Assembly (NCBI RefSeq): GCF_032116555.1
Contig: NZ_CP134949.1
Location: 2,914,001-2,978,000, forward strand
Length of the DNA: 64,000 bases
Source: Halobaculum sp. XH14
Lineage (GTDB): Archaea; Halobacteriota; Halobacteria; Halobacteriales; Haloferacaceae
Reading direction: 5' to 3'
Shown here: positions 29,830 through 52,345 of the stretch, piece after piece
Layout: each line of letters starts with the position of its first letter
How positions within the stretch are numbered: position 1 is the first letter of the stretch
The notes under the pieces: generated by a model
Databases searched by the model: none
Told to the model about the DNA's origin: nothing
The model's input: only the letters and a program-made list of their open reading frames with translations
Translations under genes and position numbers: made by a program

Positions 29830-30007
29830 GACGATATCGTCCATTGACTCAACGGGTATTTATAATCTTGCGTTCCTCACAGCTCGACCCGCGAGTCTCG
29901 TACTGCTGCTGGCACATCCTCGGGCACCCACTCTCGACTGATTCGACCTCCACCGACCCTGTTCACCGGTAGATATAAATTCGAATCTTCGGATTTTCCG
30001 AACGGCA
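29830..30007. promoter_or_regulatory. Divergent promoter region between ApnO-like and GH127-like genes
   Basis: Two TATA-like boxes face away from each other: TATTTATAAT at 29857-29866 (for the minus-strand gene) and AGATATAAAT at 29971-29980 (for the plus-strand gene, about 30 bases before the ATG at 30008). Both would give nearly leaderless transcripts. The shared 178-base region suggests co-regulation. Confidence 0.6.
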
Positions 30008-33316: not shown

Positions 33317-33339
33317 AGACGTCCTCCCCCTATACTGCA

Positions 33340-34254
33340 ATGAACCTTATTACAAACGCGTTTCCGGTACTCGGAATCAGAAATCCGCGGAACATGACGA
33401 TCGAGGAAAAAGAGAAGTTCCTCGGTTATGCGCTCATCCTTCCGTCCATCCTCCTGGTGGGGATCGTGATCATCTACCCCCTGGTGTTCAACGCGTACCT
33501 CAGTTTTACCGAGGTGCCGTTGAACCCGGCAGAGTCACCAACGTGGGTGGGACTCTCGAACTATGACTCGCTCCTCCAGAGTTCCCAGTTCTGGGATTCA
33601 TTCAAAACGACGATCATCTTCACGTTCTTCTCGGACCTGTTCGCGCTGCTGATCGGATTAGCTGCCGGACTGCTGCTTCGGCGACAGTTTCGGGGAAGGC
33701 GGTTCGTCAGAGGACTCGTCCTGCTACCGTTCATCACGCCGGTGATCGCAGTGACGTTCACCTGGCAGTGGATGTTCGAACCCGTATACGGCGTCTTCAC
33801 GATGTTGTACACCACCCTCACCGGTGCGTCGACAGCTCCTGATATTCTCGGTCAAAGCGACACTGCGGTGTGGGTCGTTATCCTCTACAGCTCGTGGCGG
33901 TATTACCCGTTCGCCTTCCTGATGTTGATCGCCCGTCTCCAGGCGATTCCCGGGGAAATGTATGAAGCGGCGAAGATCGACGGGGCCAGTCGTTTCTCAC
34001 AGTTCAAGGACATCACGTTTCCCGAGATCAAGTACATCCTCGGAACCATCTTCATCCTCCGGTGGGTGTGGAACTTCAACACGTACGCGGACGTCTGGCT
34101 CGTCTCAAGCGAGGTGACGACACTGCCCATCTTCACCTATCAAACCGCATTCTCGACCTTCGAACAGGGCATGGCATCGGCCATCTCAATGATCCTGTTC
34201 GTGTTCTTGATGATCTTCGTGTTCGTTTACGTCTCGGTGGTGATAGAATGGTAA
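33340..34254 (+). CDS. CUT1 sugar ABC transporter permease, MalF/UgpA type
   Basis: A 304-residue permease with six hydrophobic helices and the EAA coupling loop EMYEAAKIDGASRFSQFKDI. It begins 23 bases after the binding protein. Its stop overlaps the next permease gene by 7 bases, indicating coupled translation. It forms half of the transmembrane channel. Confidence 0.9.
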   Translation: MNLITNAFPVLGIRNPRNMTIEEKEKFLGYALILPSILLVGIVIIYPLVFNAYLSFTEVPLNPAESPTWVGLSNYDSLLQSSQFWDSFKTTIIFTFFSDLFALLIGLAAGLLLRRQFRGRRFVRGLVLLPFITPVIAVTFTWQWMFEPVYGVFTMLYTTLTGASTAPDILGQSDTAVWVVILYSSWRYYPFAFLMLIARLQAIPGEMYEAAKIDGASRFSQFKDITFPEIKYILGTIFILRWVWNFNTYADVWLVSSEVTTLPIFTYQTAFSTFEQGMASAISMILFVFLMIFVFVYVSVVIEW

Positions 34255-35201
34255 ACGACGACGCCCAGACGGACGGGGGCCGATCGATCGAGGACGGATC
34301 GCCCCTCGCGACAGTACTCCACAACACCAGGTCCGCGTTCGCCATGGTGTTCAAGCGCCAGAGCATCGAGCAAAGCATCTGGGAGAAACTGGCGTTCTAC
34401 GCCGGAATCGTGGGCTTGCTCGTGTTCACGCTGTTCCCGTTCTACGTGATGCTCCTGACGAGCATTACCTCGAGTGCCGAACTCTACTCGATTCCGTTCG
34501 ACATCGTCCCGGAGACGTACACACTCGACCACTACAGCTACGTCCTGCTGTCCGAGGATTTCCCGTTCCTCACCTACTTCACCAACTCGTTCATCGTCGC
34601 CTCGGTAACGAGTGGTCTGGCGGTGATCGTCGCGACGTTCGGCGGGTATAGCTTCGCCCGACTCGACTATCCGGGACGGAAACTCATCGCTCGCCTCGTG
34701 TTGGTCGTCTACCTCTTCGGCGGGATCGTCCTCGTCGTCCCGCTCTTTCGCGTGATCGCCGCACTGGGCCTCATCGACACGCTGGGCAGTCTGATGATCA
34801 CCTATCTCGTCATCGTCTTACCGCTATCACTGTATCTCCTGGGGAACTACTTCAGGAGCATCCCCGAGGAGATAGAGGAGGCGGCCTTGGTCGACGGCTA
34901 CTCGCGATTGGAGACGATTTTCTACATTACGCTCCCGCTTAGCGCACCCGCAATCGTCGCCGTGTTCCTGTTCGCGTTCATCATCGCGTGGAACGATTAC
35001 TTGTTCGCGAGCATCTTCCTCGACTCCCCCGAGAAGTACACCCTCATCATCGGGGTCGAGTATCTGAACGTCCAGTACACGCGGGTTTGGGGTCGAATCA
35101 TGGCGGCATCGGTGGCGACGAGCGCCCCGATCATCGTCTTCTTCCTCTACCTGGAGAAGTACCTCGTCGAAGGACTTACCACCGGGGGAGTGGAGGGCTA
35201 A
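34248..35201 (+). CDS. CUT1 sugar ABC transporter permease, MalG/UgpE type
   Basis: A 317-residue permease with six helices and the EAA loop EEIEEAALVDGYSRLETIFY. The open frame extends upstream into the previous gene, but the ATG at 34248 (MVNDDAQTDGG) overlaps the previous stop and fits family length. The N-terminal cytoplasmic tail of about 45 residues is longer than in bacterial MalG, as is common in haloarchaea. It pairs with the MalF-type permease. Confidence 0.9.
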   Translation: MVNDDAQTDGGRSIEDGSPLATVLHNTRSAFAMVFKRQSIEQSIWEKLAFYAGIVGLLVFTLFPFYVMLLTSITSSAELYSIPFDIVPETYTLDHYSYVLLSEDFPFLTYFTNSFIVASVTSGLAVIVATFGGYSFARLDYPGRKLIARLVLVVYLFGGIVLVVPLFRVIAALGLIDTLGSLMITYLVIVLPLSLYLLGNYFRSIPEEIEEAALVDGYSRLETIFYITLPLSAPAIVAVFLFAFIIAWNDYLFASIFLDSPEKYTLIIGVEYLNVQYTRVWGRIMAASVATSAPIIVFFLYLEKYLVEGLTTGGVEG

Positions 35202-35205
35202 TCAA

Positions 35206-36372
35206 ATGAGCGAGGAGAAACACCAGTCCACGTTGCTCCAAGAACGGGACGGTGATGCATTCGAGTCGGGTGAGAGTGCCGCCGTCGAACTCGCTGACGT
35301 CAGGAAAGAGTACGGAGACATCGTCGCAGTCGACGACATCGATCTCCGGATCGAACCGACCGAGTTTTTCGTGTTACTCGGCCCGTCCGGCTGTGGCAAG
35401 ACGACCACCCTCCGAATGGTCGCCGGGCTCGAAACACCGACTAGTGGTCGTATCTCGATCGGGGACGAGGAGGTCACTGACATGCTCCCCCGCCACCGTG
35501 ACATCTCGATGGTGTTCCAGAGTTACGCGCTGTATCCACACAAGACCGTCAAGGAGAACCTCCGGTTTCCATTGAACAAGATGGATCTCTCGTCGGCCGA
35601 GAAAGCCGACCGAATCGCTGCAACGGCGGAGATGCTCGAGATAGACGACCTCCTCGAAAAAACTCCAGGGCAGTTGAGCGGCGGACAACGACAACGCGTC
35701 GCCGTCGGTCGGACCGTCGTCAGGGAACCGAGTGTATTCCTGATGGATGAACCGCTGAGCAACCTTGATGCCAAACTACGCGTCCAGACCAGGAGCGAAC
35801 TGCGACAACTCCAGCAGGAACTCGAGACGACCACGCTGTACGTGACCCACGACCAGGAGGAGGCGATGAGTCTCGCCGACCGGATGGCGATCATGAACGA
35901 CGGCGACATTGAACAGGTCGGGACGCCCCAAGAGATCTACGAGTCGCCGACGAACGCGTTCGTCGCTGGCTTCCTCGGGGAACCCGCAATTAACTTCCTC
36001 CCCGTGACCGATCGGACCGGAGGCAAGATCGTCGTCGGGAGCCTTCCCACAGGCGTGTTCGGAGATACGTTCCCGGTGGAGACAGAGCGGTTCGGCATCC
36101 GGCCAGAAGACATCGACGTCCTGGACTCCATGGACGGCGAGTGGGAAGACGTCGACGGGAAGAGCGCTCCCGTGGAGTTCACGGTACGATTCATCGAACC
36201 GCTCGGGAACTCATACGAAATCGAACTCACGAGAGAGGAAACCTCGTTGAAGGCTCACACTGTCGATCTGCCCGCCTCCGTCGAAGAGGGCTCGACAGTT
36301 CCGATCGTCTTCGACCTGCAGAACGTGCTCGCCTTCGATGCGAACGGCGATACCATCACTACGGAGGAATAA
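35206..36372 (+). CDS. Sugar ABC transporter ATPase, MalK/UgpC type (first of two)
   Basis: A 388-residue ATPase with Walker A GPSGCGKTTTLRM, Q-loop MVFQSYALYPHKTV, signature LSGGQRQRVAVGR, Walker B VFLMDEPLSNLDA and switch THDQEEAMSLAD, then a TOBE-type regulatory domain (from about residue 240). It starts 4 bases after the permease stop. The operon encodes a second full ATPase immediately downstream, so the transporter may use an ATPase heterodimer, or one subunit may serve another permease. Confidence 0.9.
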   Translation: MSEEKHQSTLLQERDGDAFESGESAAVELADVRKEYGDIVAVDDIDLRIEPTEFFVLLGPSGCGKTTTLRMVAGLETPTSGRISIGDEEVTDMLPRHRDISMVFQSYALYPHKTVKENLRFPLNKMDLSSAEKADRIAATAEMLEIDDLLEKTPGQLSGGQRQRVAVGRTVVREPSVFLMDEPLSNLDAKLRVQTRSELRQLQQELETTTLYVTHDQEEAMSLADRMAIMNDGDIEQVGTPQEIYESPTNAFVAGFLGEPAINFLPVTDRTGGKIVVGSLPTGVFGDTFPVETERFGIRPEDIDVLDSMDGEWEDVDGKSAPVEFTVRFIEPLGNSYEIELTREETSLKAHTVDLPASVEEGSTVPIVFDLQNVLAFDANGDTITTEE

Positions 36373-36375
36373 TCC

Positions 36376-37518
36376 ATGGCGAACGTCACTCTCGACGGGA
36401 TCACAAAGATCTACGACGACGCGAAAGGGACGGAAAGGGCGGTAGACGACATATCACTGGCGGTCGACGAGGGAGAACTCCTCGTGCTCGTCGGCCCGAG
36501 CGGTTGTGGAAAGAGTACGACGCTCCGGTTGATAGCCGGCCTCGAGGCCGTGAGTCAGGGGGCTATCGAGTTCGATGAATCCGAGGTCCAGACGCTGACC
36601 CCGAGCGACCGGAACGTCGCAATGGTGTTCCAGAACTACGCGCTCTATACGAAGATGACCGGCGAGCAGAACATCGAGTACGGGTTGAAACACTCGATGG
36701 ACATCCCGGAATCGGAACGGAAACGGCACGTTCACGAGACCGCTGAACTCCTCGGTATCGATGATCTCCTCGACGACCTGCCCGCAGAGATGAGTGGCGG
36801 ACAGAAACAACGAATCGCGCTCGCCAGAGCCATCGTTCGCGACCCTGCCGTGTTCTTGCTGGACGAACCGCTGAGTAACCTCGATGCGAAGCGGCGTGCC
36901 CAGATGCGGACCGAAGTCCAGCGAATTCACGAGGAGATCGATGTAGCCACGATCTACGTGACCCACGACCAGAAGGAGGCTATGACGATGGCCGATCGCC
37001 TCGCCGTCATGAACGACGGGGAAATCGAACAAATCGCACCCCCTGAGGAGGCCTATGACGACCCGAACAACCGCTTTGTCGCCACGTTCCTGGGTAGTCC
37101 GGCGATGAATGTTCTCGAGTGTGAAACGGAGCGACGTGGCGAGGAGGTGCAGTTGATCAGTTCGGCGAACAAGCGACCACTCCAGCACCTCCCGCGGGAA
37201 CTGGTCCCGGAGGAGTACGACCGGAGTCACCTCGACGTCGGTTTGCGCCCGGAGGACCTCAAGTTATCCACGGACACCAACGAGTACCCCGCGAACGCCG
37301 AAGTCGTCGTCTCCGAGTACCAGGGGAAGGAGAACTTCGTCTACCTCGACTTCGACGGCATCGAGTTGACCGTCCGAACCGGCGACGGTACCGATCTGCG
37401 GCAAGGAATGACGGTGAGTTTCACCGTCGCGCCGGCGAACGTCTACCTCTTCGACCCCGATTCGGGAACGTCCCTGAAGACGCGCTCAGCCGTGCGGGAA
37501 CCGGCGATCGTCGACTGA
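36376..37518 (+). CDS. Sugar ABC transporter ATPase, MalK/UgpC type (second of two)
   Basis: A 380-residue ATPase with all motifs intact: GPSGCGKSTTLRL, MVFQNYALYTKMTG, MSGGQKQRIALARAI, VFLLDEPLSNLDAKR and THDQKEAMTMAD, followed by a TOBE-type domain. It begins 3 bases after the first ATPase stop. It differs clearly from the first copy, so this is an old duplication and not a recent repeat. It ends the transporter operon, before a 370-base gap with an aldolase relic. Confidence 0.9.
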   Translation: MANVTLDGITKIYDDAKGTERAVDDISLAVDEGELLVLVGPSGCGKSTTLRLIAGLEAVSQGAIEFDESEVQTLTPSDRNVAMVFQNYALYTKMTGEQNIEYGLKHSMDIPESERKRHVHETAELLGIDDLLDDLPAEMSGGQKQRIALARAIVRDPAVFLLDEPLSNLDAKRRAQMRTEVQRIHEEIDVATIYVTHDQKEAMTMADRLAVMNDGEIEQIAPPEEAYDDPNNRFVATFLGSPAMNVLECETERRGEEVQLISSANKRPLQHLPRELVPEEYDRSHLDVGLRPEDLKLSTDTNEYPANAEVVVSEYQGKENFVYLDFDGIELTVRTGDGTDLRQGMTVSFTVAPANVYLFDPDSGTSLKTRSAVREPAIVD

Positions 37519-37888: not shown

Positions 37889-38548
37889 ATGAGCAGTGTA
37901 TGCTTCTTCCACACGGGAGCAGTGCTAACGGAGACGTTCGACGAACTAGCATCGGAATACATTCCGGACACCGAGTACTACCACATGGTAGACGAAAGCG
38001 TCATCGACGAGTTGCTCTCGGAGGGCGCGTTGACGCCCGGGATCACACAACGGATCTGCTCACAACTCACGCTCGCCGAGCAGGCGGGGGCGGACGTCGT
38101 CCTTGATACCTGCTCGAGCACATCCCCCGCGGTGAACGTGGCCCGGCAAATCGTCGATATTCCGATCGTCAAGATAGACGATCCGATGACGGAACGGGCA
38201 GTCGAAGTCGGTGACCGGATCGCAGTGATCGCGACGGCGGCGTCGACACTCGAACCGAGCACTGAACTGGTCGAGCGCAAAGCAGCCCGGACCGACAGAC
38301 CCATCGAGATTCAGTCGTCGCTCGTCGACGACGCGTTCGAAGCACGCCAGAACGGTGAGACGGAGCGTCACGACCGGCTCGTCACCGAACGCGCTCGCGA
38401 GGTCGCGGACGACGTCGACGTGATCGTGCTGGCGCAGGCGTCGATGAGCCACCTCGAGAACGAACTGTCTGAAGAGACTGGCCTGACGGTGCTCTCAAGC
38501 CCCGACTTAGCGATGGAGCGGATCGCAGACATCGCCCACTCGTCGTAG
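37889..38548 (+). CDS. Aspartate/glutamate racemase-family protein with only one catalytic cysteine
   Basis: A 219-residue protein with the Asp/Glu/hydantoin racemase fold. The first active-site cysteine is at Cys75 in VLDTCSSTSPAV. Where true racemases have the second cysteine (xxxxCT), this protein has VLAQASMSHLE without Cys, so a two-base racemisation is unlikely. A one-cysteine member could act as an isomerase, decarboxylase or hydrolase. A TATA-like box at 37851-37860 lies about 30 bases upstream. It precedes the RLP and kinase, suggesting a role on an acid-sugar intermediate; I cannot assign the reaction. Confidence 0.7.
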   Translation: MSSVCFFHTGAVLTETFDELASEYIPDTEYYHMVDESVIDELLSEGALTPGITQRICSQLTLAEQAGADVVLDTCSSTSPAVNVARQIVDIPIVKIDDPMTERAVEVGDRIAVIATAASTLEPSTELVERKAARTDRPIEIQSSLVDDAFEARQNGETERHDRLVTERAREVADDVDVIVLAQASMSHLENELSEETGLTVLSSPDLAMERIADIAHSS

Positions 38549-38653: not shown

Positions 38654-39916
38654 ATGGAGAGAATTAGGGCCCGCTATCGGATAGAGACACCATATCCACT
38701 CGACGAAGCAGCAGCAGCGATAGCCGGTGAACAGTCCTCGGGAACGTTCGTCGACGTCCCCGCCGAGACGGAGTCGCTCCAGGAACGACACGGCGCCACG
38801 GTCGAGGAGATAACCGAACTCGAAACAGTCGAGGAACCGACCCTCCCTGGCGCACGCACGCCGGCGGAGATCGACGATTCGGACGGGTATCGCCGTGCGG
38901 AAGTCGTCGTCTCGTATCCCGGGGAAAACGTCGGAACGTCGCTCCCGAATCTGGTGACGACTGTGGGCGGAAACCTCTTCGAACTCCGCCATTTCTCCGG
39001 ACTCCGGCTGTTCGACATCGACGTGCCAGCCGCACTGGCAGATGCGTACCCGGGTCCGCAGTTCGGTATCGAGGGCACGCGTGAGATCGTCGACGTGTAC
39101 GACCGGCCGCTCATCGGGACGATCATCAAACCCAGTGTGGGCCTCTCTCCGGCGGAGACCGGTGAGCTCGTCGGGGAGTTGCTAGAGGCGGACCTCGATT
39201 TCATCAAGGACGACGAACTCATCGCAAGCCCGCCGTACTCGCCCGTCAAGGACCGCGTGACCGCGGTGATGGGGGCTATCGACTCGTATCGAGATGAGAC
39301 GGGCAACGAAGTGATGTACGCCTGTAACATTACAGGCGACGTGGACGAGATGCTCGAACGACATGACGCCGTCGTCAACGCGGGCGGCAACTGCGTCATG
39401 GTGAGTATGAACAGCGTGGGGCTGTCTGCACTGACTGAACTCCGCAAGCACGCGGACGTCCCCATTCACGCCCACCGGAACGGCTGGGGTGCACTTTCAC
39501 GCTGTCCCGAACTCGGATACGAATATCAGGCGTATCATCAGTTCTTCCGACTGGCTGGAGCAGACCAGATGCACGTCAACGGCATCCGGAACAAGTTCTG
39601 TGAATCCGACGAGTCCGTGATCAAGTCCGCGAAAGCGGTGCAGACGCCCATCGCGTCGGACGACGACGTCGCGATGCCCGTGTTCTCGTCGGGACAGTGG
39701 GCCGACCAGGCGGCCGATACCCACGAGGCGCTCGGGAACGTCGACTTACTGTACCTCGCCGGCGGCGGCATCCTCGGTCATCCGGACGGTCCCGCGGCGG
39801 GCGTGGATCACCTCAAACAGGGATGGGAGGCCGCCATGAAGGGCATCCCGTTAGACGAACACGCCAAGGACCACCAAGAACTACGCGTGGCCCTCGATCA
39901 CTACGAGAGACGATGA
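38654..39916 (+). CDS. RuBisCO-like protein (RLP, form IV), candidate 3-oxo-isoapionate-4-phosphate enzyme
   Basis: A 420-residue RuBisCO large-subunit homologue. Key positions are Lys159 in GTIIKPSVGLSP, the metal site FIKDDE with Lys185-Asp187-Glu188 (the lysine is carbamylated in true RuBisCO), His274-Arg275 in HAHRNG, Lys314 in GIRNKF, Ser346-Gly347 in SSGQ and GGGILGHPDG at 370-379. The loop-6 sequence and spacing differ from carboxylating RuBisCO, and no phosphoribulokinase-type partner is nearby, so it is form IV. RLPs paired with DUF1537 kinases decarboxylate or cleave 3-oxo-isoapionate-4-phosphate in bacteria. The kinase gene overlaps its stop by 4 bases (ATGA). Confidence 0.85.
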   Translation: MERIRARYRIETPYPLDEAAAAIAGEQSSGTFVDVPAETESLQERHGATVEEITELETVEEPTLPGARTPAEIDDSDGYRRAEVVVSYPGENVGTSLPNLVTTVGGNLFELRHFSGLRLFDIDVPAALADAYPGPQFGIEGTREIVDVYDRPLIGTIIKPSVGLSPAETGELVGELLEADLDFIKDDELIASPPYSPVKDRVTAVMGAIDSYRDETGNEVMYACNITGDVDEMLERHDAVVNAGGNCVMVSMNSVGLSALTELRKHADVPIHAHRNGWGALSRCPELGYEYQAYHQFFRLAGADQMHVNGIRNKFCESDESVIKSAKAVQTPIASDDDVAMPVFSSGQWADQAADTHEALGNVDLLYLAGGGILGHPDGPAAGVDHLKQGWEAAMKGIPLDEHAKDHQELRVALDHYERR

Positions 39917-41292
39917 CGGACACTGACCTCCTCCTCGCCTACTACGGCGACGATATCACCGGGTCGACGGACGCACTGGAAGGGCTGGCGCGAAATGGCG
40001 TCCGGGCAGTCCTCTTCCTCGCCCCGCCCGACTCCGACGACCTCGACGAGTTCGACGGGATTCAGGCGGTGGGCGTCGCGGGACGCAGTCGTTCGATGAC
40101 GCCGGACGAGATGGACGAGACCTTGCCGTCGGCGTTCGAGTCACTCGCAGCACTTGACCCGCCGCTCGTCCACTATAAGGTATGTTCGACGTTCGATTCA
40201 GCCCCCGAAATCGGAAGCATCGGCCACGCGATAGACCTCGCCCAGGACGTCTACGACTCACCGTTCGTCCCCGTATCACAGGGCTCGACGGTTCCACACG
40301 GCCGGTACGTCGCGTTCGGGAACCTATTTGCGGTCCAGGACGGGACGCCGTACCGGATCGACCGTCATCCGACGATGAGCGACCACCCGGTGACGCCCAT
40401 GTCGGAGAGCGACCTCCGTCGCCATCTGGCAGAACAGACCGACCGGTCGATCGGCACCGTCGACGTTCGCAGTTTGGCGACCGTCGACTCGGCAGTCGAC
40501 TCTCTCGACGAAGCGACGGACAACCACGAGATCGTCGTGTTCGACGGGATCACGACCGATCACCTCGAGACGATTGGACGGGTCCTCTGGGACCGGGCGA
40601 CGAGCGAGTCCGATCCGCTGTTTGCCGTCGGGTCGTCCGGCCTCGAACACCACGCGCTGTCGAGCCGATGGGACGCGCTCGGAGAGATCGACCGCTCCCA
40701 GTCCGTTCTCGAGCCACGGTCCCCCGTCGACCGGATCGCGGTGATGTCCGGCAGTGCCTCGCCGGTGACTGCCCGTCAAATCGAGGTCGCCGCGGAGACC
40801 GGATTCACTATCATCGATCTCGAGACGGCACGTCTCGTCGACCCCGCAGAAGCGGCGGACGCGCGCGCGATCGCCGTCGAAGCTGCGGTTCAGGCCATCG
40901 ACGGCGGCCAGAGCGTCGTGCTCGCGGCCGCTCGCGGCCCTGACGATGCCGCAATCGCCGAGACACGACTACGATTCGAATCGGTCGATAGCGACGAGAC
41001 GCTCGGTGCGGTACTCGGTCGGGAACAGGGCGAAATCTTCCGTCGCGTGCTCGAGGAGACCGGAATCGAACGCGCCTGTGTAGCCGGTGGTGATACGAGT
41101 GGCTTCGTCGTGCCAGCACTGGACGTCACGGCGCTAGAGCCCATCGCGCCAACCGCCCCGGGTGCTCCTCTGTGTCGCGCCGCGAGCAATGACCCAACGT
41201 TCGATGGCCTCGAGTTATCGCTCAAGGGCGGTCAGACCGGCGACGATGACTACTTCGAACTCGTCCGACGGGGCGGTGTCCCCGCGGAGTAA
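39913..41292 (+). CDS. DUF1537 four-carbon/branched acid-sugar kinase, OiaK-like candidate
   Basis: A 459-residue kinase of the OtnK/DtnK/OiaK family. Visible blocks are YYGDDITGS at the N-terminus, VHYKVCSTFDSAP, YRIDRHPTMSDHPVTPM and the C-terminal nucleotide-binding AGGDTSGFV and LKGGQTGDDDYF. The frame extends upstream inside the RLP gene, but the ATG at 39913 overlaps the RLP stop and gives the canonical start. In the apionate pathway the family phosphorylates 3-oxo-isoapionate on C4, supplying the RLP substrate. 3-oxo-tetronate kinase is the main alternative; the missing class II aldolase argues against it. Confidence 0.85.
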   Translation: MTDTDLLLAYYGDDITGSTDALEGLARNGVRAVLFLAPPDSDDLDEFDGIQAVGVAGRSRSMTPDEMDETLPSAFESLAALDPPLVHYKVCSTFDSAPEIGSIGHAIDLAQDVYDSPFVPVSQGSTVPHGRYVAFGNLFAVQDGTPYRIDRHPTMSDHPVTPMSESDLRRHLAEQTDRSIGTVDVRSLATVDSAVDSLDEATDNHEIVVFDGITTDHLETIGRVLWDRATSESDPLFAVGSSGLEHHALSSRWDALGEIDRSQSVLEPRSPVDRIAVMSGSASPVTARQIEVAAETGFTIIDLETARLVDPAEAADARAIAVEAAVQAIDGGQSVVLAAARGPDDAAIAETRLRFESVDSDETLGAVLGREQGEIFRRVLEETGIERACVAGGDTSGFVVPALDVTALEPIAPTAPGAPLCRAASNDPTFDGLELSLKGGQTGDDDYFELVRRGGVPAE

Positions 41293-42934: not shown

Positions 42935-45900
42935 ATGCCATCTCCTCCCCGGATATCGGAACGTCCAACGGTCATCGCTCCGAAAGTAGAGTACGAGAGG
43001 GCACCGAACAACGTGGTTCCCAGCGAACCGCGATTTTCGTGGCAGGCGAACGCCGACCGGCGAGGAGTCGTCCAGACTGCATATCGGGTCATCGTCGGCC
43101 GGACGAGAGACGATGTCGTAGAGAAACGGGGGTCACTCTGGGATTCGGGGAAAGTGGACGGATCCGATTCGACGTCCGTCGTGTACGACGGTGTTCCCCT
43201 GGAGGCGGACAGCGACTACTACTGGAGGGTGCGGATCTGGGACGAGGACGACCGACCCTCGAAATGGTCCGACCTCTCCAGCTTCTCGACTGCGCTCTCC
43301 GGCGAGCACGAGTGGGATGGCGAGTGGATCAGCTACCAACCGGGCGCCGGCGACTCGAACGGCTACCGGAGTCGCTGGCATCCCGCCACCAAGGACCCCG
43401 AGGAGTGGGTACAGGTCGACCTCGGTGAGTCGCGTCCGATCACGCGGATCGAACTCCATCCGGCGTCGCCGTGCGACGGTCCGGAGACGCCCGATGGCGT
43501 GGTGGTCTCGAACGTCTACTCGATCGACGATGACCTTGAGAGCGGTCCCAGGGGATTCGGGTTCCCCGTTCGCTACCGGATCGAGGTTTCGGACGACGAG
43601 ACGTTCGCCCAGTCGAGCGTCGTCGTCGACAGAACCGAGGAGGCGCAAGCGAACCCGGGGACCGATTCGCGCTCGTTCGACGTGAACACGACCGCACGGT
43701 ACGTCCGGGTCGTTGCCACCGACCTGTACACGTTCGATCCGGCGACTCCTCCAAGAGACCGGTTTGGCCAGCTACGGACCGAGTTTGCCCCGGAGGCCTA
43801 CGGGTCGTGGCAGACCTTCGCCCTCGCCGGCCTCGGAGTGTACAACGGCGGTGAAACCGACGTCGCAGCCGACCGGCCGGTGACCGCATCGTCCAGTGTC
43901 GAGCGAGAGGGGTGGGGCCGATCCAACCTCGTCGACGGATGGTACGCGTCGCGGACGGCGGCCGCCTCACCGCTGTTTCGGACCGACGTGGCGCTCGATG
44001 GAGATGTCGTACGTGCCAGAGCGCACGTCTGCACGCTCGGGTACGGTGAACTGTATGCCAATGGCGAACGAGTGGGTAACGAGGTTCTCAACCCAGGGTG
44101 GACCGAGTACGACGAGCGGGCGCTGTACAGCACGTACGACCTCAGTGAACACCTCGAAGCGGGCGAGAATGCACTGGGCCTCTGGCTCGGGCGGGGATGG
44201 TTCTCGAAGAACGCGCAGGGATGGACGGGCTTCGGTTCGCCGCGTGCCCTCCTGCATCTGACCCTCGAGTACGCGGACGGTTCGACCCGGACGATCGGGA
44301 CCGACGAGTCGTGGACGGCGACGGAGAGCCCCATCGTCGAACACGACCTCTACGATGGCGAGCGGTACGACGCCCGCCTGGAACAGCCGGGATGGACGGA
44401 ACCAGATTTCGACGGCGAATGGGAGTACGCGACGGTCGTCGAGGGCCCGGACGGGGAGCTCACACCCCAGCGACTCCCGCCGATCCGCGTGACGGAACAG
44501 ATCGATCCGGTTGAGGTTCACGACCACGAGAAGGGCCCGATCTTCGATTTCGGCCAGAACCTCGTCGGCTGGGTGGCGATCAACGTACACGGCGCTGACG
44601 CCGGCGACGAGATAACGATTCGGCACGCAGAGACCCTCCTGGACGATGGAAGTCTCGCGATGGGAGATCTCCGAACGGCCGACGCGACGGACACCTACGT
44701 CGCTGCCGATTCGAGCCGGGCAACTTACCGACCTCGATTTACGTACCACGGATTCAGATACGTGCAGGTGTCGAACTACCCGGGCGATCTCTCGACGGAC
44801 GACCTACGCGCACACGTCGTCCATTCCGATCTCGACCGGATCGGTTCGTTCGACTGCTCGAATACGGACCTCCGTCAAGTGCAACGGAACGCGATGTGGG
44901 GCCTTCGGGGTAACGTACACAGCGTCCTCACGGACTGTCCACAGCGCGACGAACGGTTCGGCTGGACCGGCGATAACCACATCGCCGGCCGGTCACTGAT
45001 GTTCAACTTCGACGCGGCGCTGTTTTACGAGAAGTGGATGAACGACCACGCTGACGTCCAGTCGGACCACGGCTACGTGGCGGACACGATCCCGTACGGC
45101 TATGGATCTACGCCAGAAGACCCGACCTGGGGCATCACGCAGGTCACCATTCCCTGGCACCTGTACCGGCACTACGGTGACCGTGGCGTCCTCAAGCGTC
45201 ACTACGAACGGATGCGTCGGTACGTCGACTACTGGGATGAACAGTCGAACGACGGGATCATTCCCGACAAGTACGGGAAATACGGTGACTGGCTCGCGTT
45301 CGAAAACGCCGACGGGCGACGGGGACTGCCGTTCGACCTGTTCAATAGCGCGTTCCATTACCACACGACGAATCTGTTCGCGAAGATAGCGACGACGCTC
45401 GGAAACGAGGCTGACGCCGCCACGTATCGACGGCGCGCAGAACACATCGCTGACGCCATCAACAACGAATTCTTCCGAGCTGATGAGGCGCGGTACGGAC
45501 CTGGAACGCAAGCATCGTACACGGTTCCGCTGTTCGTGGGACTCGTCCCGGACGAACACGTGAACGACGTCGCCACGCGGTTGGCTGAGACTGTCCGTTC
45601 GGACGGTTGCAAACTGAAGACCGGCTTCCTCGGCACACGTCCGCTCCTCCATACCCTCGTCGACCATGGGTACGAGGAGATCGCCTACGAAGTCGTGAGC
45701 CAACCGGAGCAGCCCGGATGGGTGTACATGGTCCGGCAGGGCGCGACGACGATGTGGGAGCGCTGGGACTCGGACTCCCGGATCGGTTCCGGGATGAACT
45801 CGTTTAATCACTCTCCGTTCACGTTCGTCTCCGAGTACCTCTACGAGGCGATCGCCGGACTCCGACTGGGCGACGATCCAGTCACTGACCATGCGACGGT

Positions 45901-46225
45901 CGCACCGACGCTCGTTGACGCCCTCGACTGGGCCGAAGGGCAGGTGGAGACGCCCAACGGCGAGTTCACGGTGGCCTGGGAGCGGACTGACTCCGACCGG
46001 GGATACGAACTCTCCACGACAGTCCCATGGAACACGACCGCAACGGTTCGCCTGCCCGGTGCGGCTGACTCGCTCGTCACCGAGTCCGGCACGCGACTCG
46101 CTGGGACGACCGGTGACGTTCCGGACGGTATCGACGCTGTTCGCCAAGAGGAGGGCGATCTCGTCGTCGAAGTCGGTTCCGGGACGTACCAGTTCGCCGT
46201 TGAATCGGAGCAGCCCTCCCGCTGA
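42935..46225 (+). CDS. Alpha-L-rhamnosidase, glycoside hydrolase family 78
   Basis: A 1096-residue enzyme releasing terminal L-rhamnose. The N-terminal fibronectin/Ig-like region has FSWQA, QTAYRVIVG and LWDSGKV (residues about 30-75). An inserted discoidin-like segment (VQVDLGESRPITRIELHPAS, about 157-300) could bind carbohydrate. The next beta domain has GYGELYANGERVG, then an (alpha/alpha)6 barrel with DCPQRDERFGWTGD at residues 667-680, Glu673 being the likely general acid, and Glu942 in TTMWERW the likely base. A beta-sandwich closes the protein. No Tat or Sec signal is present, so it probably acts on imported rhamnosides. TATA-like box at 42901-42910; nearly leaderless start. Confidence 0.92.
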   Translation: MPSPPRISERPTVIAPKVEYERAPNNVVPSEPRFSWQANADRRGVVQTAYRVIVGRTRDDVVEKRGSLWDSGKVDGSDSTSVVYDGVPLEADSDYYWRVRIWDEDDRPSKWSDLSSFSTALSGEHEWDGEWISYQPGAGDSNGYRSRWHPATKDPEEWVQVDLGESRPITRIELHPASPCDGPETPDGVVVSNVYSIDDDLESGPRGFGFPVRYRIEVSDDETFAQSSVVVDRTEEAQANPGTDSRSFDVNTTARYVRVVATDLYTFDPATPPRDRFGQLRTEFAPEAYGSWQTFALAGLGVYNGGETDVAADRPVTASSSVEREGWGRSNLVDGWYASRTAAASPLFRTDVALDGDVVRARAHVCTLGYGELYANGERVGNEVLNPGWTEYDERALYSTYDLSEHLEAGENALGLWLGRGWFSKNAQGWTGFGSPRALLHLTLEYADGSTRTIGTDESWTATESPIVEHDLYDGERYDARLEQPGWTEPDFDGEWEYATVVEGPDGELTPQRLPPIRVTEQIDPVEVHDHEKGPIFDFGQNLVGWVAINVHGADAGDEITIRHAETLLDDGSLAMGDLRTADATDTYVAADSSRATYRPRFTYHGFRYVQVSNYPGDLSTDDLRAHVVHSDLDRIGSFDCSNTDLRQVQRNAMWGLRGNVHSVLTDCPQRDERFGWTGDNHIAGRSLMFNFDAALFYEKWMNDHADVQSDHGYVADTIPYGYGSTPEDPTWGITQVTIPWHLYRHYGDRGVLKRHYERMRRYVDYWDEQSNDGIIPDKYGKYGDWLAFENADGRRGLPFDLFNSAFHYHTTNLFAKIATTLGNEADAATYRRRAEHIADAINNEFFRADEARYGPGTQASYTVPLFVGLVPDEHVNDVATRLAETVRSDGCKLKTGFLGTRPLLHTLVDHGYEEIAYEVVSQPEQPGWVYMVRQGATTMWERWDSDSRIGSGMNSFNHSPFTFVSEYLYEAIAGLRLGDDPVTDHATVAPTLVDALDWAEGQVETPNGEFTVAWERTDSDRGYELSTTVPWNTTATVRLPGAADSLVTESGTRLAGTTGDVPDGIDAVRQEEGDLVVEVGSGTYQFAVESEQPSR

Positions 46226-46334: not shown

Positions 46335-47636
46335 ATGAGCGAACAGTATGGACACGAACGCGAGTTCGTTCGAACGTTCTTCACGTCTCCGACCGCGGTG
46401 AAGGGGGAGGACGACTCCGCCAAGATGATCCGCAGCGCGGCCGGACTCCGCGGGCTCCAGGCCCCCGACGTCTGGGTCCCCGACAACGAGGACGCGACCG
46501 CGCCCGCCATGCGTGAGGAGGGCGTCGAGAACATCGTCGAGGTCGTCGCCGAGCACGGTGCCGAGTTCCCCGGCGAGATCCACCCCCGCGTCGTCTGGCA
46601 CCGCGACAGCCCCACCACGCGTCACTCGGGGTTCCAGCAGATCATGGAGATCGCCGACCCCGACAACGGCGCGGTCGAGCACGTCGACGGGTTCGTCATT
46701 CCGGAAGTGGGTGACGTCGACGACTGGAAGAAGGCCGACGAGTTCCTCACCATCGTCGAGACCGAGCACGGACTGGAGGAGGGGAGCCTCTCGATGTCCG
46801 TGATCGTCGAGAGCGGCGAGGCCGAACTCGCCATGGCCGACCTCCGCGAGGAGATGGGCAAGCCCTCGAACAATCTCGAACGGCTGTTCATGCTCGTCGA
46901 CGGCGAGGTCGACTACACCAAGGACATGCGGGCGATGACGCCGACCGGCGAACTGCCGCCCTGGCCCGAACTCCGGCACAACACCTCCCGCGGTGCCAGC
47001 GCCGCCGGCCTGATCGCCGTGGACGGCCCGTACGACGACATCCGCGACGTCGAGGGCTATCGCGACCGGATGCGGGACAATCGGGCCAAGGGGATGACCG
47101 GCATCTGGTCGCTGACGCCCACACAGGTCGAAGTGGCGAACACCGACCCGCTCCCGCCGACAACCGGAAGCTGGCTGCTCTCGGTCGGGGACGACGAGGT
47201 CGACCTCCCCGCCGAGGGCGACCGGGCCGTCTACGACGGCGAGGACCTCTCGCTGGCGGAGACCGACGACGGGTACGTCCTGGGTGTCGACGGCGACGAG
47301 CACGAACTGGACGCCGACGGCCTGCACGAGGAACTGCTCGACCGCATCTCGTACGTGCCGAGCATGGACGACATCGTCGACTCGATGGAGGAGTTCGAGG
47401 CCGCAAAGGAGGCGGGCAGGGGCGCGATCGCCATGACCCAGTCCACGACGCTCGTCCTCGACGGCGTCGAGGTGGCGTTCAGCACGGATCGGATGTGGGA
47501 CGAGGCGACCTACCAGGCGGCCCAGACGCCGATCACGCTGTTCCAGGACGTCTACGAGCACCGACCCGACCAGCACGCGGAACTCGAGGAGATGTACGGC
47601 CCCGACGTCGTCCAACGGGCGAGGAACCTCGGATAG
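46335..47636 (+). CDS. aceB: Malate synthase, haloarchaeal type
   Basis: A 433-residue protein matching in length and sequence the atypical short malate synthase of haloarchaea, which condenses glyoxylate and acetyl-CoA to malate and CoA. Recognisable blocks are VRTFFTSPTAVKGEDDSAKM, VWVPDNEDATAPAM and SLSMSVIVESGEAELAMAD. The frame is open upstream into the rhamnosidase gene, but the ATG at 46335 lies about 34 bases after a CTTTATTAG TATA-like box. No isocitrate lyase is in the window. Its neighbour is a glycolate/D-lactate oxidase, so glyoxylate is more likely to come from glycolate. Codon GC is higher than in neighbours, suggesting a core-type gene. Confidence 0.9.
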   Translation: MSEQYGHEREFVRTFFTSPTAVKGEDDSAKMIRSAAGLRGLQAPDVWVPDNEDATAPAMREEGVENIVEVVAEHGAEFPGEIHPRVVWHRDSPTTRHSGFQQIMEIADPDNGAVEHVDGFVIPEVGDVDDWKKADEFLTIVETEHGLEEGSLSMSVIVESGEAELAMADLREEMGKPSNNLERLFMLVDGEVDYTKDMRAMTPTGELPPWPELRHNTSRGASAAGLIAVDGPYDDIRDVEGYRDRMRDNRAKGMTGIWSLTPTQVEVANTDPLPPTTGSWLLSVGDDEVDLPAEGDRAVYDGEDLSLAETDDGYVLGVDGDEHELDADGLHEELLDRISYVPSMDDIVDSMEEFEAAKEAGRGAIAMTQSTTLVLDGVEVAFSTDRMWDEATYQAAQTPITLFQDVYEHRPDQHAELEEMYGPDVVQRARNLG

Positions 47637-47687
47637 TTCCGTCCCCGGGAGGCGATGCCGGTCCGCTCGACGATCAGCAAGTCGGTA

Positions 47688-50600
47688 TCAAACGATCGCT
47701 TCGTGAACCTTCTCGATGGGATGAGACACGCGCTCACCGTATCGGTCGTCGAGTTGTGTCCGACATGATGCCCCCGGTGCCACGACGCTCTCACCCGGAC
47801 TTCGGTCCACCTGGTCGTACAGGATCCGTCCGATGGCCTTCGAGAGGTCGTAGTGTTCGGCCTCGTATCCGAAGGAGCCAGCCATGCCACAACAGCTGGA
47901 GTCGAGGGAGTCGACTTCGTATCCGACCGCCCGTAACACCGCTGCGGTGTGGTGGTCGCGGTTCAACGCCGACTGGTTGCAGTGGCCATGGTACGTGAGG
48001 TGTTCTCCGGACACACGGAACTCGATCTCGTCGTACACTCGATACGTGTTCAGGTACTCACATATCCCGTAGGCGTTCGCGGAGACGGTCCGAACGTCCC
48101 CGCCGGAGAGTAGGTCGAGATACTCGTCCTGGAACATCGCCGCATCCGACGGCTCGACGAAGACGACCGACCATCCATCCTCGAGGAAGGGTGCCAGCGC
48201 GTCGACGTTAGTCGACGCCCGGTCGCGAGCCTCGTCCAAGAGACCCATCGAGAACGCCGCTCTTCCGCTCGGTTCGACTTCACTGGGAGCGAGGACTCGA
48301 ACGTGGACGTTTGCCTCCTCGAGGACGTCCACGGCGGCCTTTCCGGGTTCGGGGTAGCTGTAGTTCGTGTACGTGTCCGGAAACAGGAGGACTTTGTCGC
48401 TCGAGGCATCGATCGAGACACGGTTCTCGCGGGACCGCGCCCAGTCGACGAATGTCTCTCGCCGAAACGTGGGCGTATCGCGCTCGGCTGCGATACCGAA
48501 CAGCCGTTCTCCGAGGAAGTCGGCACCGGGAAGCTGTTGCATCCAGTTCGAGAGCGGCGCGAGGTTGCTTCCGATGGCACTGACTCGGTCGACGTTGGCA
48601 AACAGTCGCTCGCGAACCGTGCGTCCCGCCTCCTGATGGTATTCGTGTTTCACTTCAGCCTTGAGTTTCGCCAGGTCGACACCGGTGGGGCAGTCGCTCT
48701 TACAGCCCTTACAGCCCACGCAGAGGTCCAGGACCTCCGTCTGGAATCGTTCGGAGTACAGTTCCGATTCAGGGAGTTCCCCACTGATCGCAGCGCGGAG
48801 AAGGTTCGCCCGGCCACGCGTCGTCTGGATCTCCTCGTTGGATGCACGGTAGGTCGGGCACATGACGTCGCTACCCGTCTGGCGACACGTCCCGCATCCG
48901 TTGCAAAGTTCGACGAGATCGGAGAACCCACCTTCGTCGGTGAAATCGAGCGTCGTCTGTGGCTCAAGCGACTGATAGTCCGCGCCATACCGGAGGTTCT
49001 CGCGCATGTCGGCACCGACGCCACGTTCGGAGTCCGGCCCGATGTCATCCGGCCCGTCGCGGTAGACGACGTTACCAGGATGCATGTCCCATCCGGGATC
49101 GAAGGCTGTCTTGACCGCCTTGAACGCTGCCCAGAGATCTTCACCGTACATCTTGGGATTGAATTCGGTGCGAGCCATCCCGTCGCCGTGTTCGCCCGAG
49201 AACGCACCGTGGTGTTCGAGTACCAGGTCAGTCACGTCTTCGGTGATCGAGTGCATCGTCTCGATGCCCGCCTCCGTCTTCAAGTTCAGAACGGGGCGGA
49301 TGTGAAGCGTTCCCGACCCAGCGTGGGCGAAGTAGGCAGCCGAGGTACCGTGGGTGTCGAGGACGGCTTCGAACTTCTCGACGTACTCGGCCAATTCGGC
49401 CGGCGGGACCGTCGCATCTTCGATAAACGGGTACGGCTTTGGGTCCCCTTCGAGTGACATGAGTAGAGGGATGGCCGCTTTTCGCAATTTCCAGATGTCG
49501 GCCTGGTCCTCGTCGGTGTACGCTTCGACGACATCGAACGCGTTACCGTCATCGAGAAACCGTTCGTTGGTCGCGGCGATGGCCGCCTCGAAATCGTCGT
49601 GGAGTTCCGAGTCGTACTCGAGCATCAAGGCGGCCGCCGTTCCTTCAGGTAGGGGTTCGACGTACTCGGCATACCCGTCCGACTCGGAGGCGAGCCGGAA
49701 GACCTCATCGTCCATCAGTTCGACGGCGCTGACGTCGTACTCCAGGGCGACCGGAACCGCCTGCATCGCCTTGACCAGATCGTCGAAACAGTACAAAGCG
49801 AGCGTCGTCGCCTCGGGCACGGTCACCAGTGAGATCTCGGCTTCGACGATGACGCCCAGCGTGCCTTCTGCGCCGACGAACAGTTTCGCGAGGTTGATCA
49901 CCTGCTCGCCGTCTTCGTTCTCGTAGATCACCCGGTCGAGATTGTAGCCGGACACGCGGCGTTTGAGTTCGGGGTAGCGTTCGGCGATCTCTTCTTCATT
50001 GTCCTCGACAAGTTGGCGAACGGTCTCGTACACGTTGGCCTCACGGTCGTCTTTCCCGACGATGTGGTCGTATTCCTCGCTATCGATGACGACCTCACGG
50101 GCGTGGAGGAGGGTACCGTCGGAGAGCACGGCCTTCACTTCTTCCGTATACGCGTCGGTGATGCCATAGCGCACGGAGTGTGCACCGGTCGAGTTGTTGC
50201 CGATGCCGCCACCGACGGTCGCACGATTCGACGAGGCGGGGTCCGGCGCGAACTGTAGTCCGTGCTCGGCCAGCACCGCGTCGAGGTCGTCCTGGACGAC
50301 GCCCGGTTGGATCCTCGCTCGCTGCTCGTCGGGGCGAACGTCGAGCACCTCGTTCATGTGTCTGGACATATCAAGGATGACACAACCCGGGCCGACAGCC
50401 TGACCCCCGAGAGATGACCCCGTTCCCCTTGGCATCACCGGGACATCGTGGTCCGTCGCTACCTCGACTGCCGTCTGCACGTCCTCGACCGAGGTGGGAT
50501 AGACGACGCCGGCGGGCCGAGACTGGTAAATGCTGCCGTCCGTGGCGTAGAGAATTTGTGCGTATTCGTCGAAGCGAACGTCACCGGCAACTGCGGCTCC

Positions 50601-50720
50601 GAGGTCAGTCGCGAGCGCCCGATACTCCGGAACGACATCGTCGACTTCACGATCGAGATCTGAAGGATTGGCCGGCGATTCTACTGGCTGTACCGACGGC
50701 TCTCGCTCTTGGGCGCCCAT
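47688..50720 (-). CDS. Fused FAD/Fe-S oxidase: glycolate or D-lactate dehydrogenase (GlcD-GlcF type)
   Basis: A 1010-residue protein. Residues about 60-290 form the FAD-binding PCMH domain (MPRGTGSSLGGQAVGPG; TVGGGIGNNSTGAHS), about 300-560 the FAD-oxidase C-terminal domain with the SGEHGDGMARTEF block, then two 4Fe-4S motifs (CNGCGTC from Cys606 and CVGCKGCKSDCP from Cys667) and C-terminal CCG domains (SCCGMAG with Cys943-Cys944). This combines GlcD and GlcF in one chain and would pass electrons to the membrane quinone pool. Convergent with malate synthase, it would turn glycolate into glyoxylate. D-lactate is the main alternative substrate. Confidence 0.85.
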   Translation of the reverse strand: MGAQEREPSVQPVESPANPSDLDREVDDVVPEYRALATDLGAAVAGDVRFDEYAQILYATDGSIYQSRPAGVVYPTSVEDVQTAVEVATDHDVPVMPRGTGSSLGGQAVGPGCVILDMSRHMNEVLDVRPDEQRARIQPGVVQDDLDAVLAEHGLQFAPDPASSNRATVGGGIGNNSTGAHSVRYGITDAYTEEVKAVLSDGTLLHAREVVIDSEEYDHIVGKDDREANVYETVRQLVEDNEEEIAERYPELKRRVSGYNLDRVIYENEDGEQVINLAKLFVGAEGTLGVIVEAEISLVTVPEATTLALYCFDDLVKAMQAVPVALEYDVSAVELMDDEVFRLASESDGYAEYVEPLPEGTAAALMLEYDSELHDDFEAAIAATNERFLDDGNAFDVVEAYTDEDQADIWKLRKAAIPLLMSLEGDPKPYPFIEDATVPPAELAEYVEKFEAVLDTHGTSAAYFAHAGSGTLHIRPVLNLKTEAGIETMHSITEDVTDLVLEHHGAFSGEHGDGMARTEFNPKMYGEDLWAAFKAVKTAFDPGWDMHPGNVVYRDGPDDIGPDSERGVGADMRENLRYGADYQSLEPQTTLDFTDEGGFSDLVELCNGCGTCRQTGSDVMCPTYRASNEEIQTTRGRANLLRAAISGELPESELYSERFQTEVLDLCVGCKGCKSDCPTGVDLAKLKAEVKHEYHQEAGRTVRERLFANVDRVSAIGSNLAPLSNWMQQLPGADFLGERLFGIAAERDTPTFRRETFVDWARSRENRVSIDASSDKVLLFPDTYTNYSYPEPGKAAVDVLEEANVHVRVLAPSEVEPSGRAAFSMGLLDEARDRASTNVDALAPFLEDGWSVVFVEPSDAAMFQDEYLDLLSGGDVRTVSANAYGICEYLNTYRVYDEIEFRVSGEHLTYHGHCNQSALNRDHHTAAVLRAVGYEVDSLDSSCCGMAGSFGYEAEHYDLSKAIGRILYDQVDRSPGESVVAPGASCRTQLDDRYGERVSHPIEKVHEAIV

Positions 50721-50945: not shown

Positions 50946-51480
50946 GTGGAGGCGACGAAGGCTTCCCTCACGATCGTGGAGAATCTTCGGAGATCCGATG
51001 GCTCTGATGGCGCTGAATCGACAGACCGACTCGAGATGCTGTCATGAATCGCCCACGACCACCTTGCAGACGCAAAAAGAGGAGTATTCGGTCAGGGACG
51101 GCGACACGTAGCACGAGCGCACTCGGTTCTTTTAGCTGTAGGAGCCGAACAAAGCTGAGGATTCGAACATTCGAGGTGAGGGAACCGGAGATCGCGGACA
51201 TCACCGGCCGAACGGGCGAACACGCCACCAGCACGATCGAGGAGGACGGCCATTTGGCAATTCTCTCTCAGACCAGCGATTCCCCGAATGAAATCGACGG
51301 AGACGGTCTCGATTGAAGCTGGCTCGAGAGTGTACGAACCACTGACTGCAAAGAGCACTCTGAGGCCGTCGATAAACGGGCGGCCTGCATCGATCCCAGT
51401 CTGTACTACCGGGATAGCAGATGCGACGGAGGACAGAACGCAACGGACCGGTACTGTGAGTCGACTTGCTTGGCGAAACG
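50946..51480 (+). pseudogene. Decayed IclR-family regulator
   Basis: Switching among plus-strand frames recovers an IclR protein in order: VEATKASLTIVENLR (winged helix), TDRLEML, AHDHLADAKRGVFGQG, RSRTKLRIRTFEVREPEIAD, ITGRTGEHATSTIEEDGHL and TVSIEAGSRVYEPLTAKSTL. Stops and shifts separate them. It parallels the intact IclR at 51587 block by block (FEVTKPEIDELAEKTGEHAN there), so it is probably a dead tandem paralogue. Confidence 0.7.
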
Positions 51481-51586
51481 TTCAATCCCGACACCGAAGC
51501 ACCGAGACAGATCGTGTGAGAACGTGCCGGCACTTCAATCCGACATTCCCGGAATGATTTTGCCGGTGGAGTCCAATCGTCGATCA

Positions 51587-52345
51587 ATGTCGAATCAAGT
51601 TCCGATCAAGGCCGCAAAAGTGGCCCACGAGATCGTCGAATTACTCCGCGAACTCGGGGGTGCGCGCGTTTCGGAAGTCGCAGAACAGATGGACATGCCC
51701 ACGAGTACCGCGCATGATTACCTCCGGACGCTCGAACAGGAAGAGTATCTGGTGAAAGAAGGCAGCCTCTATCAGATTAGCACTCGATACCTCCAGCTAG
51801 GGGAACAGGCTCGCCTCCGCCGAAAGGCGTTCGAGGTCACCAAGCCGGAGATAGACGAACTAGCCGAGAAAACCGGTGAGCACGCCAACCTCATGATAGA
51901 AGAGCACGGGCGTGGCGTGTTTCTGTACAAGGCCCGTGGGTCCGTCGCCGTCCAACTCGACACGCACGCGGGTATGCGCGTCCCGCTTCAGACGACGGCG
52001 CTCGGGAAGTCCATGATGGCCCATCGACCGCGCGAAGAAGTGGAGGCTATCCTCGACCGGCACGGCATGCCGAAGGTGACCGAGAGCACGATCACCAGTC
52101 GAGAGGCGCTGTTCGATGAACTCGATCAGATTCGAGAGCGGGGGTACGCATACGATGACGAGGAACGCGTAAAGGGGATGCGTTGCATCGCCGCGCCGAT
52201 CATCGGCGAGAATGAACGCGCGATCGCCGCCGTCAGCGTCTCGGGCCCCAAGAGTCGGATGCGAAAAGAACGGTACACCGAAGAGGTCCCGGAACTGGTC
52301 CTCAGCAGTGCTAACGTTGTCGAGGTGAATCTCACGTATTCGTGA
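51587..52345 (+). CDS. IclR-family transcriptional regulator
   Basis: A 252-residue regulator, the standard IclR length. The winged helix spans about residues 8-70 (PTSTAHDYLRTLEQEEYLV), and the effector domain includes VQLDTHAGMRVPLQTTALGK. The frame extends upstream, but the ATG at 51587 gives the family start and lies about 27 bases after an AT-rich stretch. It precedes the FAH-family hydrolase and lactonase candidate and is the likely regulator of the sugar island. Inducer unknown; a deoxy-sugar acid or keto acid would fit the family. Confidence 0.9.
   Translation: MSNQVPIKAAKVAHEIVELLRELGGARVSEVAEQMDMPTSTAHDYLRTLEQEEYLVKEGSLYQISTRYLQLGEQARLRRKAFEVTKPEIDELAEKTGEHANLMIEEHGRGVFLYKARGSVAVQLDTHAGMRVPLQTTALGKSMMAHRPREEVEAILDRHGMPKVTESTITSREALFDELDQIRERGYAYDDEERVKGMRCIAAPIIGENERAIAAVSVSGPKSRMRKERYTEEVPELVLSSANVVEVNLTYS

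Follow-up and report, generated by a model that had tools for sequence, protein, structure and literature searches.

A RuBisCO-like protein of Halobaculum sp. XH14, probably glycolate-forming, in a low-G+C island that also holds a malate synthase and a fused GlcD-GlcF oxidase

Analysis of 64,000 nucleotides of the chromosome (C1) of Halobaculum sp. XH14, a haloarchaeon with a 3.68-Mb genome, showed a RuBisCO-like protein (RLP) that is probably glycolate-forming, as judged from its active-site residues, the genome-wide lack of an erythrulose-phosphate route and the content of its operon. The whole stretch (C1:2914001-2978000) is referred to as the window. The RLP (38654-39916, + strand, 420 aa) was of the OiaT-like, non-OiaX type by Pfam, NCBIfam and residue comparison. 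We regard it as rather likely that it is an OiaT-type 3-oxo-isoapionate-4-phosphate transcarboxylase/hydrolase, with glycolate and 3-phosphoglycerate as products and with the glycolate passing to a GlcDF oxidase and, where present, to malate synthase. The protein probably extends a known enzyme type by a new member from the archaea, and to our knowledge the re-fixation of internal CO2 by a RuBisCO relative is a reaction type so far assigned in bacteria only. If the proposal is true, archaea re-fix internal CO2 with a RuBisCO relative during the catabolism of plant cell-wall sugars.

The RLP scored 243.7 bits against Pfam RuBisCO_large, and at 47% identity to the solved RLP structure 3nwr its fold can be taken as fixed. 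It shared 49% identity with a Shinella OiaX and about 48-57% with the RLPs of Xanthobacteraceae that were compared. Assignment to RuBisCO form III was rejected (TIGR03326, 267.5 bits, cut-off 497). The best NCBIfam match was the OiaX decarboxylase model NF042437, at about 496 bits and short of the equivalog cut-off of 700, while true OiaX proteins scored 774-786 bits (six OiaX-type reference sequences gathered, five scored). Orthologues, 64-75% identical to the window RLP, were present in 10 of 394 Halobacteria genomes, this genome included. A literature search found nothing specific on haloarchaeal apiose use or haloarchaeal RLPs.

The RuBisCO residues E60, T65, N123, K175, K201, D203, E204, H294, R295, H327 and K334 were all present in the window RLP, where E60, N123 and H327 correspond to E26, N107 and H307 of its own numbering. 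N123 takes part in the carboxylation half-reaction of RuBisCO, as does the pair E60-K334. In an excerpt of PMC4085280, E60, N123, H327 and K334 are listed as RuBisCO active-site residues. At RuBisCO positions 60, 123, 177 and 327 the window RLP had E/N/S/H, whereas all six OiaX sequences had D/G/A/Q, and identification as OiaX by residues was rejected on the absence of this D60/G123/A177/Q327 set. In the alignment, E60, N123, H327 and K334 were retained in 89 of 90 non-OiaX relatives, a set that includes every haloarchaeal RLP collected and 14 additional Xanthobacteraceae/Alsobacter RLPs; position 177 was S or N (89 of 90), and K334 was conserved throughout the family. The OiaX signature is that of the decarboxylase, so that transcarboxylation/hydrolysis, the other activity, is the most likely one for the window RLP. 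All Xanthobacteraceae RLPs examined shared the E60/N123/H327 set with it, and OiaT, which we take to be the gene name of the Xanthobacter autotrophicus 3-oxo-isoapionate-4-phosphate transcarboxylase/hydrolase, would for that reason itself be of the E/N/H type. More positions peculiar to OiaX were observed (window numbering: 225 N->G, 279 G->D, 315 F->Y and 345 S->G), and these are possible decarboxylase determinants. In a separate observation, an Armatimonadetes RLP (L148 10001-11245) had L, G and S in place of E60, T65 and N123, with glycines 403/404 altered, and possibly represents a further RLP type.

The first-pass annotation had counted two known RLP outcomes for 3-oxo-isoapionate-4-phosphate, decarboxylation and transcarboxylation/hydrolysis, which a passage of PMC6302742, citing Carter et al. 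2018, credits to Agrobacterium and Xanthobacter RLPs. That count falls short by one, as a third outcome is published: in the D-hamamelose pathway an RLP works as an oxygenase (Kim et al. 2018, cited in passages of PMC8914248 and of PMC10176493, ref. 95), using O2 on a branched-chain sugar-acid derivative, and is linked to 3-phosphoglycerate and glycolate. The residues retained in the window RLP indicate competence for carboxylation-like chemistry and would fit an oxygenase equally, with everything compatible with oxygenation in place. Even so, it seems unlikely that the RLP is such an oxygenase, with a related sugar-acid phosphate of branched chain as substrate and the same two products formed via O2 and not by internal CO2 transfer: D-apionate is suggested by the gene for a D-apionate oxidoisomerase (ApnO)-like protein, which lies in the island and next to several RLPs of other haloarchaea.

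The decarboxylation branch of the Carter pathway reportedly needs the erythrulose-phosphate isomerases LerI and DerI. Genome-wide searches found no RpiB/DerI family member (PF02502) in any of the 10 RLP-bearing haloarchaeal genomes, this one included; a transketolase N-domain was absent from this genome and gave short, weak partial matches in six others. Lacking both an RpiB-type isomerase and a transketolase, Halobaculum sp. XH14 would have in erythrulose or erythrose phosphate a dead end by known routes. These absences, the score far under the equivalog cut-off and the missing D60/G123/A177/Q327 set make it improbable that the RLP is a simple OiaX-like decarboxylase releasing erythrulose phosphate and CO2 beside an unrelated malate synthase-oxidase (aceB-glcDF) pair, even though the OiaX model is its best NCBIfam match and the pair is, as described below, a module independent of RLPs. 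Local absence of isomerases was discarded as a discriminator in favour of the genome-wide search, since by itself it says too little: several OiaX loci likewise lack them nearby. DerI with a triose-phosphate-isomerase homologue was found in 1 of 111 RLP loci (Rhizobium BG6, whose RLP is an OiaX), and DerI was not nearby in 3 of the 4 OiaX loci with longer flanks. An aldo-keto reductase, a pyruvate kinase and an enolase followed directly behind RLP-kinase in Haloterrigena KLK7, and B. elkanii and Azohydromonas likewise had a pyruvate kinase close to the RLP, as expected if 3-phosphoglycerate forms. The minimal set of Halalkalicoccus consisted of RLP, kinase, ApnO-like protein and GntP permease, with no isomerase.

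The genes around the window RLP fit an OiaT-type cluster, with both a kinase and an ApnO-like gene in the island. The four-carbon acid sugar kinase (39913-41292, +; SBD_N and NBD_C domains) was OiaK-like, scoring 457.7 bits against NCBIfam OiaK (cut-off 700), and its ATG overlapped the RLP stop (ATGA at 39913). Each of the nine 40-kb neighbourhoods of haloarchaeal RLPs had a homologue, which adjoined the RLP in eight. The candidate ApnO, a PGDH_C-type dehydrogenase (28984-29844, - strand; PF16896, 181 bits), was 49% identical to its counterpart in a Shinella OiaX locus and recurred beside RLPs; it lay 9 kb upstream of the window RLP on the opposite strand, with tighter clusters in Halalkalicoccus and Haloterrigena. 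Substrates of the kinase and of the ApnO-like protein are those predicted from homology, and the substrate proposed for the RLP is in turn read from its neighbour genes.

Directly upstream of the RLP lay an Asp/Glu racemase-like protein (37889-38548, +; PF01177, 76.6 bits). Such a gene accompanied RLP-kinase in numerous loci of bacteria and haloarchaea, for the most part where ApnO was lacking, and its product may stand in for the oxidoisomerase or indicate a different substrate. This recurrence and the position of the gene would suit an RLP whose substrate, supplied via the racemase-like protein and not ApnO, is a different acid-sugar phosphate of four or five carbons, the oxidase then handling glycolate or another D-2-hydroxyacid of that route; we give this little credence, as the island has the ApnO-like gene too and the RLP-kinase-ApnO combination recurs. 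As a further observation, plasmids of Haloterrigena and Haloarcula shared a conserved block upstream of RLP-kinase (L162 7349-13927, L163 7672-13942 and L168 7299-13925) with a TRAP transporter, an HpcH/HpaI-type aldolase, an SDR, a VOC or hypothetical protein and a protein of ~268 aa without Pfam match.

Pfam domains showed a sugar ABC transporter (31925-37518, +) made up of a solute-binding protein, two permeases and two ATPases. Between the RLP operon and aceB lay a GH78-type alpha-L-rhamnosidase (42935-46225, +; Bac_rhamnosid6H, 364 bits), with an epimerase family gene before it and downstream of the kinase; the GH78 gene next to the RLP operon is a plant-glycan context. A rhamnonate-dehydratase-like enolase-superfamily protein and a fumarylacetoacetate-hydrolase-family protein were also in the window. 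The 570-aa product of 30008-31720, which matched GH127 weakly, shared 42-45% identity with genes close to RLPs in Paenibacillus and Cohnella; BLAST gave no match in the window for the 620-aa protein from the OiaX loci of Shinella.

In the proposed mechanism, a D-apiose-derived acid would be taken up, oxidised and rearranged in an ApnO-type step, and the OiaK-like kinase would phosphorylate the rearranged acid. The RLP would form an enediolate with the CO2 held in the site, re-add this CO2 at the neighbouring carbon in a RuBisCO-like manner and hydrolyse the adduct to glycolate and 3-phosphoglycerate. The latter would enter lower glycolysis, and the GlcDF oxidase would convert glycolate to glyoxylate, which would become malate where a malate synthase exists.

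About 6.4 kb beyond the RLP, a malate synthase and a fused oxidase lay in the convergent arrangement described by the first-pass annotation, 51 bp apart. The malate synthase aceB (46335-47636, +, 433 aa) scored 831.6 bits against the NCBIfam model of the haloarchaeal H isoform (NF041315, malate_syn_AceB_Halo), above the cut-off of 780, and matched the Haloferax volcanii structure 3oyx over its full length (741 bits). The catalytic residues of that isoform, given as Asp388 and Arg84 in an excerpt of PMC3112382, were preserved as D389 and R85. By these matches the island aceB is a true H-isoform malate synthase. The glcDF gene (47688-50720, -) encodes a 1010-aa FAD/Fe-S D-2-hydroxyacid oxidase in which the Pfam domains FAD_binding_4 and FAD-oxidase_C, 4Fe-4S dicluster and CCG make up a GlcD-GlcF fusion with both GlcD-type and GlcF-type parts. 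All its NCBIfam scores were under cut-off (YdiJ 549 bits; GlcD 244.9, cut-off 567.9; GlpC 233; GlcF 93.2, cut-off 333), and it is a probable glycolate oxidase. An IclR-family regulator stood beside the oxidase (51470-52345, +; IclR_C, 148 bits), with BhcR, the regulator of the beta-hydroxyaspartate cycle, as best NCBIfam match (188 bits, cut-off 350); IclR-family genes adjoined aceB-glcDF in several other haloarchaea.

Enzymes of the GlcD type use D-2-hydroxyacids, which counts against an oxidase working on lactate from an L-rhamnose pathway of the island and not on glycolate. That reading, which we consider unlikely, draws on the GH78 rhamnosidase, the rhamnonate-dehydratase-like protein and the fumarylacetoacetate-hydrolase-family protein of the window, and on a passage of PMC8305020 according to which Hfx. 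volcanii breaks rhamnose down to pyruvate and lactate. However, the same source describes a deletion of LudBC, a candidate L-lactate dehydrogenase, as impairing growth of Hfx. volcanii on rhamnose, and homologues of the island oxidase paired with malate synthase in many genomes. From this pairing across haloarchaea, glycolate is the likeliest substrate of such oxidases.

The distribution of the pair was surveyed in the 394 Halobacteria genomes. H-type aceB was present in 161, and the GlcDF oxidase, with two candidates scored per genome, was near-universal (380). The two genes lay within 12 kb of each other in at least 42 genomes, at least 38 of them without RLP. With an RLP, 4 of 10 genomes had aceB; without one, 157 of 384 did (odds ratio 0.96), and there was no association. 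Three RLP-bearing genomes (G106, G192 and G313) had the aceB-glcDF pair far from the RLP. The pair is thus a haloarchaeal module in its own right, independent of the RLP, and the argument of the first-pass annotation, which had predicted a glycolate-forming RLP from a malate synthase and oxidase beside it, loses its force; the predicted outcome itself remains the best-supported reading by residues, missing route and operon content. Co-location of aceB and glcDF as evidence for the RLP product was discarded after this survey, and in haloarchaea a malate synthase and oxidase beside an RLP are not pathway evidence by themselves. GlcDF was near the RLP in 2 of the 10 RLP genomes (this genome and G347), a slight excess over chance whose rough Poisson estimate of 0.02 to 0.06 varies with the assumed copy number and is not relied on. 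At the threshold used, H-type aceB was missing from six of the 10 RLP-bearing haloarchaea, and an A/G-type malate synthase (PF01274) was found in none of the 10, so glyoxylate must go elsewhere in those six. The aceB-paired oxidases did not form one clade, and the nearest tree relatives of the island oxidase were unpaired with aceB.

The G+C content was 59-60% across window positions 1-64000 and the 20 kb upstream (C1:2894001-2914000, L222) and 69-71% in five other sampled chromosome stretches, and the simplest reading of this region of at least 80 kb around the RLP is a large imported island. Third-position G+C was 0.75 in the island glcDF and the RLP and 0.92 in the island aceB, like the native aceB. 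The native aceB belongs to a second aceB-glcDF pair at about C1:1636631, and the two aceB copies were 100% DNA-identical over 1269 bp (window 46354-47622 and about C1:1636642-1637910, L064 9642-10910). This block was nearly coextensive with the coding sequence, with flanks otherwise diverged or unrelated, and the island and native glcDF were merely 71% identical, with the oxidases in different clades of the tree. On the simplest reading, gene conversion has probably replaced the island aceB with the native sequence; recent copying, or an assembly fault, may instead account for the identity. The first-pass statement that exactly these two genes occur, with no isocitrate lyase, is correct for the annotated genes of the island and does not extend to the genome, which has the second pair and, outside the island, a probable isocitrate lyase of 345 aa (within L062, near C1:2552000) with a KRCGH motif and 106 bits to PF00463, below the cut-off of both NCBIfam models (isocitrate lyase and methylisocitrate lyase). 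Given a glycolate-forming RLP, we lean slightly towards the island pair, and not the native one, as serving it.

The wider proposal, held tentatively and at a little under even confidence, is that haloarchaea have a complete D-apionate pathway via a CO2-recycling RLP that gives glycolate and 3-phosphoglycerate and never forms erythrulose phosphate, at least one lineage having a dedicated glycolate branch in its island (a foreign glcDF and an aceB overwritten by the native gene). If it is true, three active-site residues could separate the decarboxylases of the RLP family from its carboxylation-competent members. The split between E60/N123/H327 and D/G/Q would then be a cheap predictor of decarboxylating or re-carboxylating activity for hundreds of unassigned RLPs, and it bears on the gain and loss of carboxylation chemistry in the RuBisCO family.

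Among known systems, the ace operon of Hfx. volcanii pairs malate synthase with isocitrate lyase. The island aceB resembled the AceB H isoform of that species (3oyx) in its full-length match and catalytic residues but was paired with a glycolate-type oxidase. The oxidase shared FAD (GlcD) and Fe-S/CCG (GlcF) domains with the GlcD/GlcF glycolate oxidase and YdiJ-type D-2-hydroxyacid dehydrogenase; unlike these, it joined the GlcD and GlcF parts in a single polypeptide and was below all three model cut-offs. The D-hamamelose RLP, compared by its description in the cited passages alone, likewise takes a branched-chain substrate and differs from the proposed reaction in its use of O2. With OiaX of Agrobacterium radiobacter K84 (a passage of PMC6302742; NF042437) the window RLP shares its superfamily and probably its substrate, and it differs in scoring under the equivalog cut-off and in its residues at positions 60, 123, 177 and 327. 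It is most like OiaT of X. autotrophicus in its operon partners, a kinase of OiaK type and a gene of ApnO type, and, as judged through the Xanthobacteraceae RLPs examined and not an assigned OiaT sequence, in retaining the RuBisCO carboxylation residues; unlike OiaT, it is archaeal.
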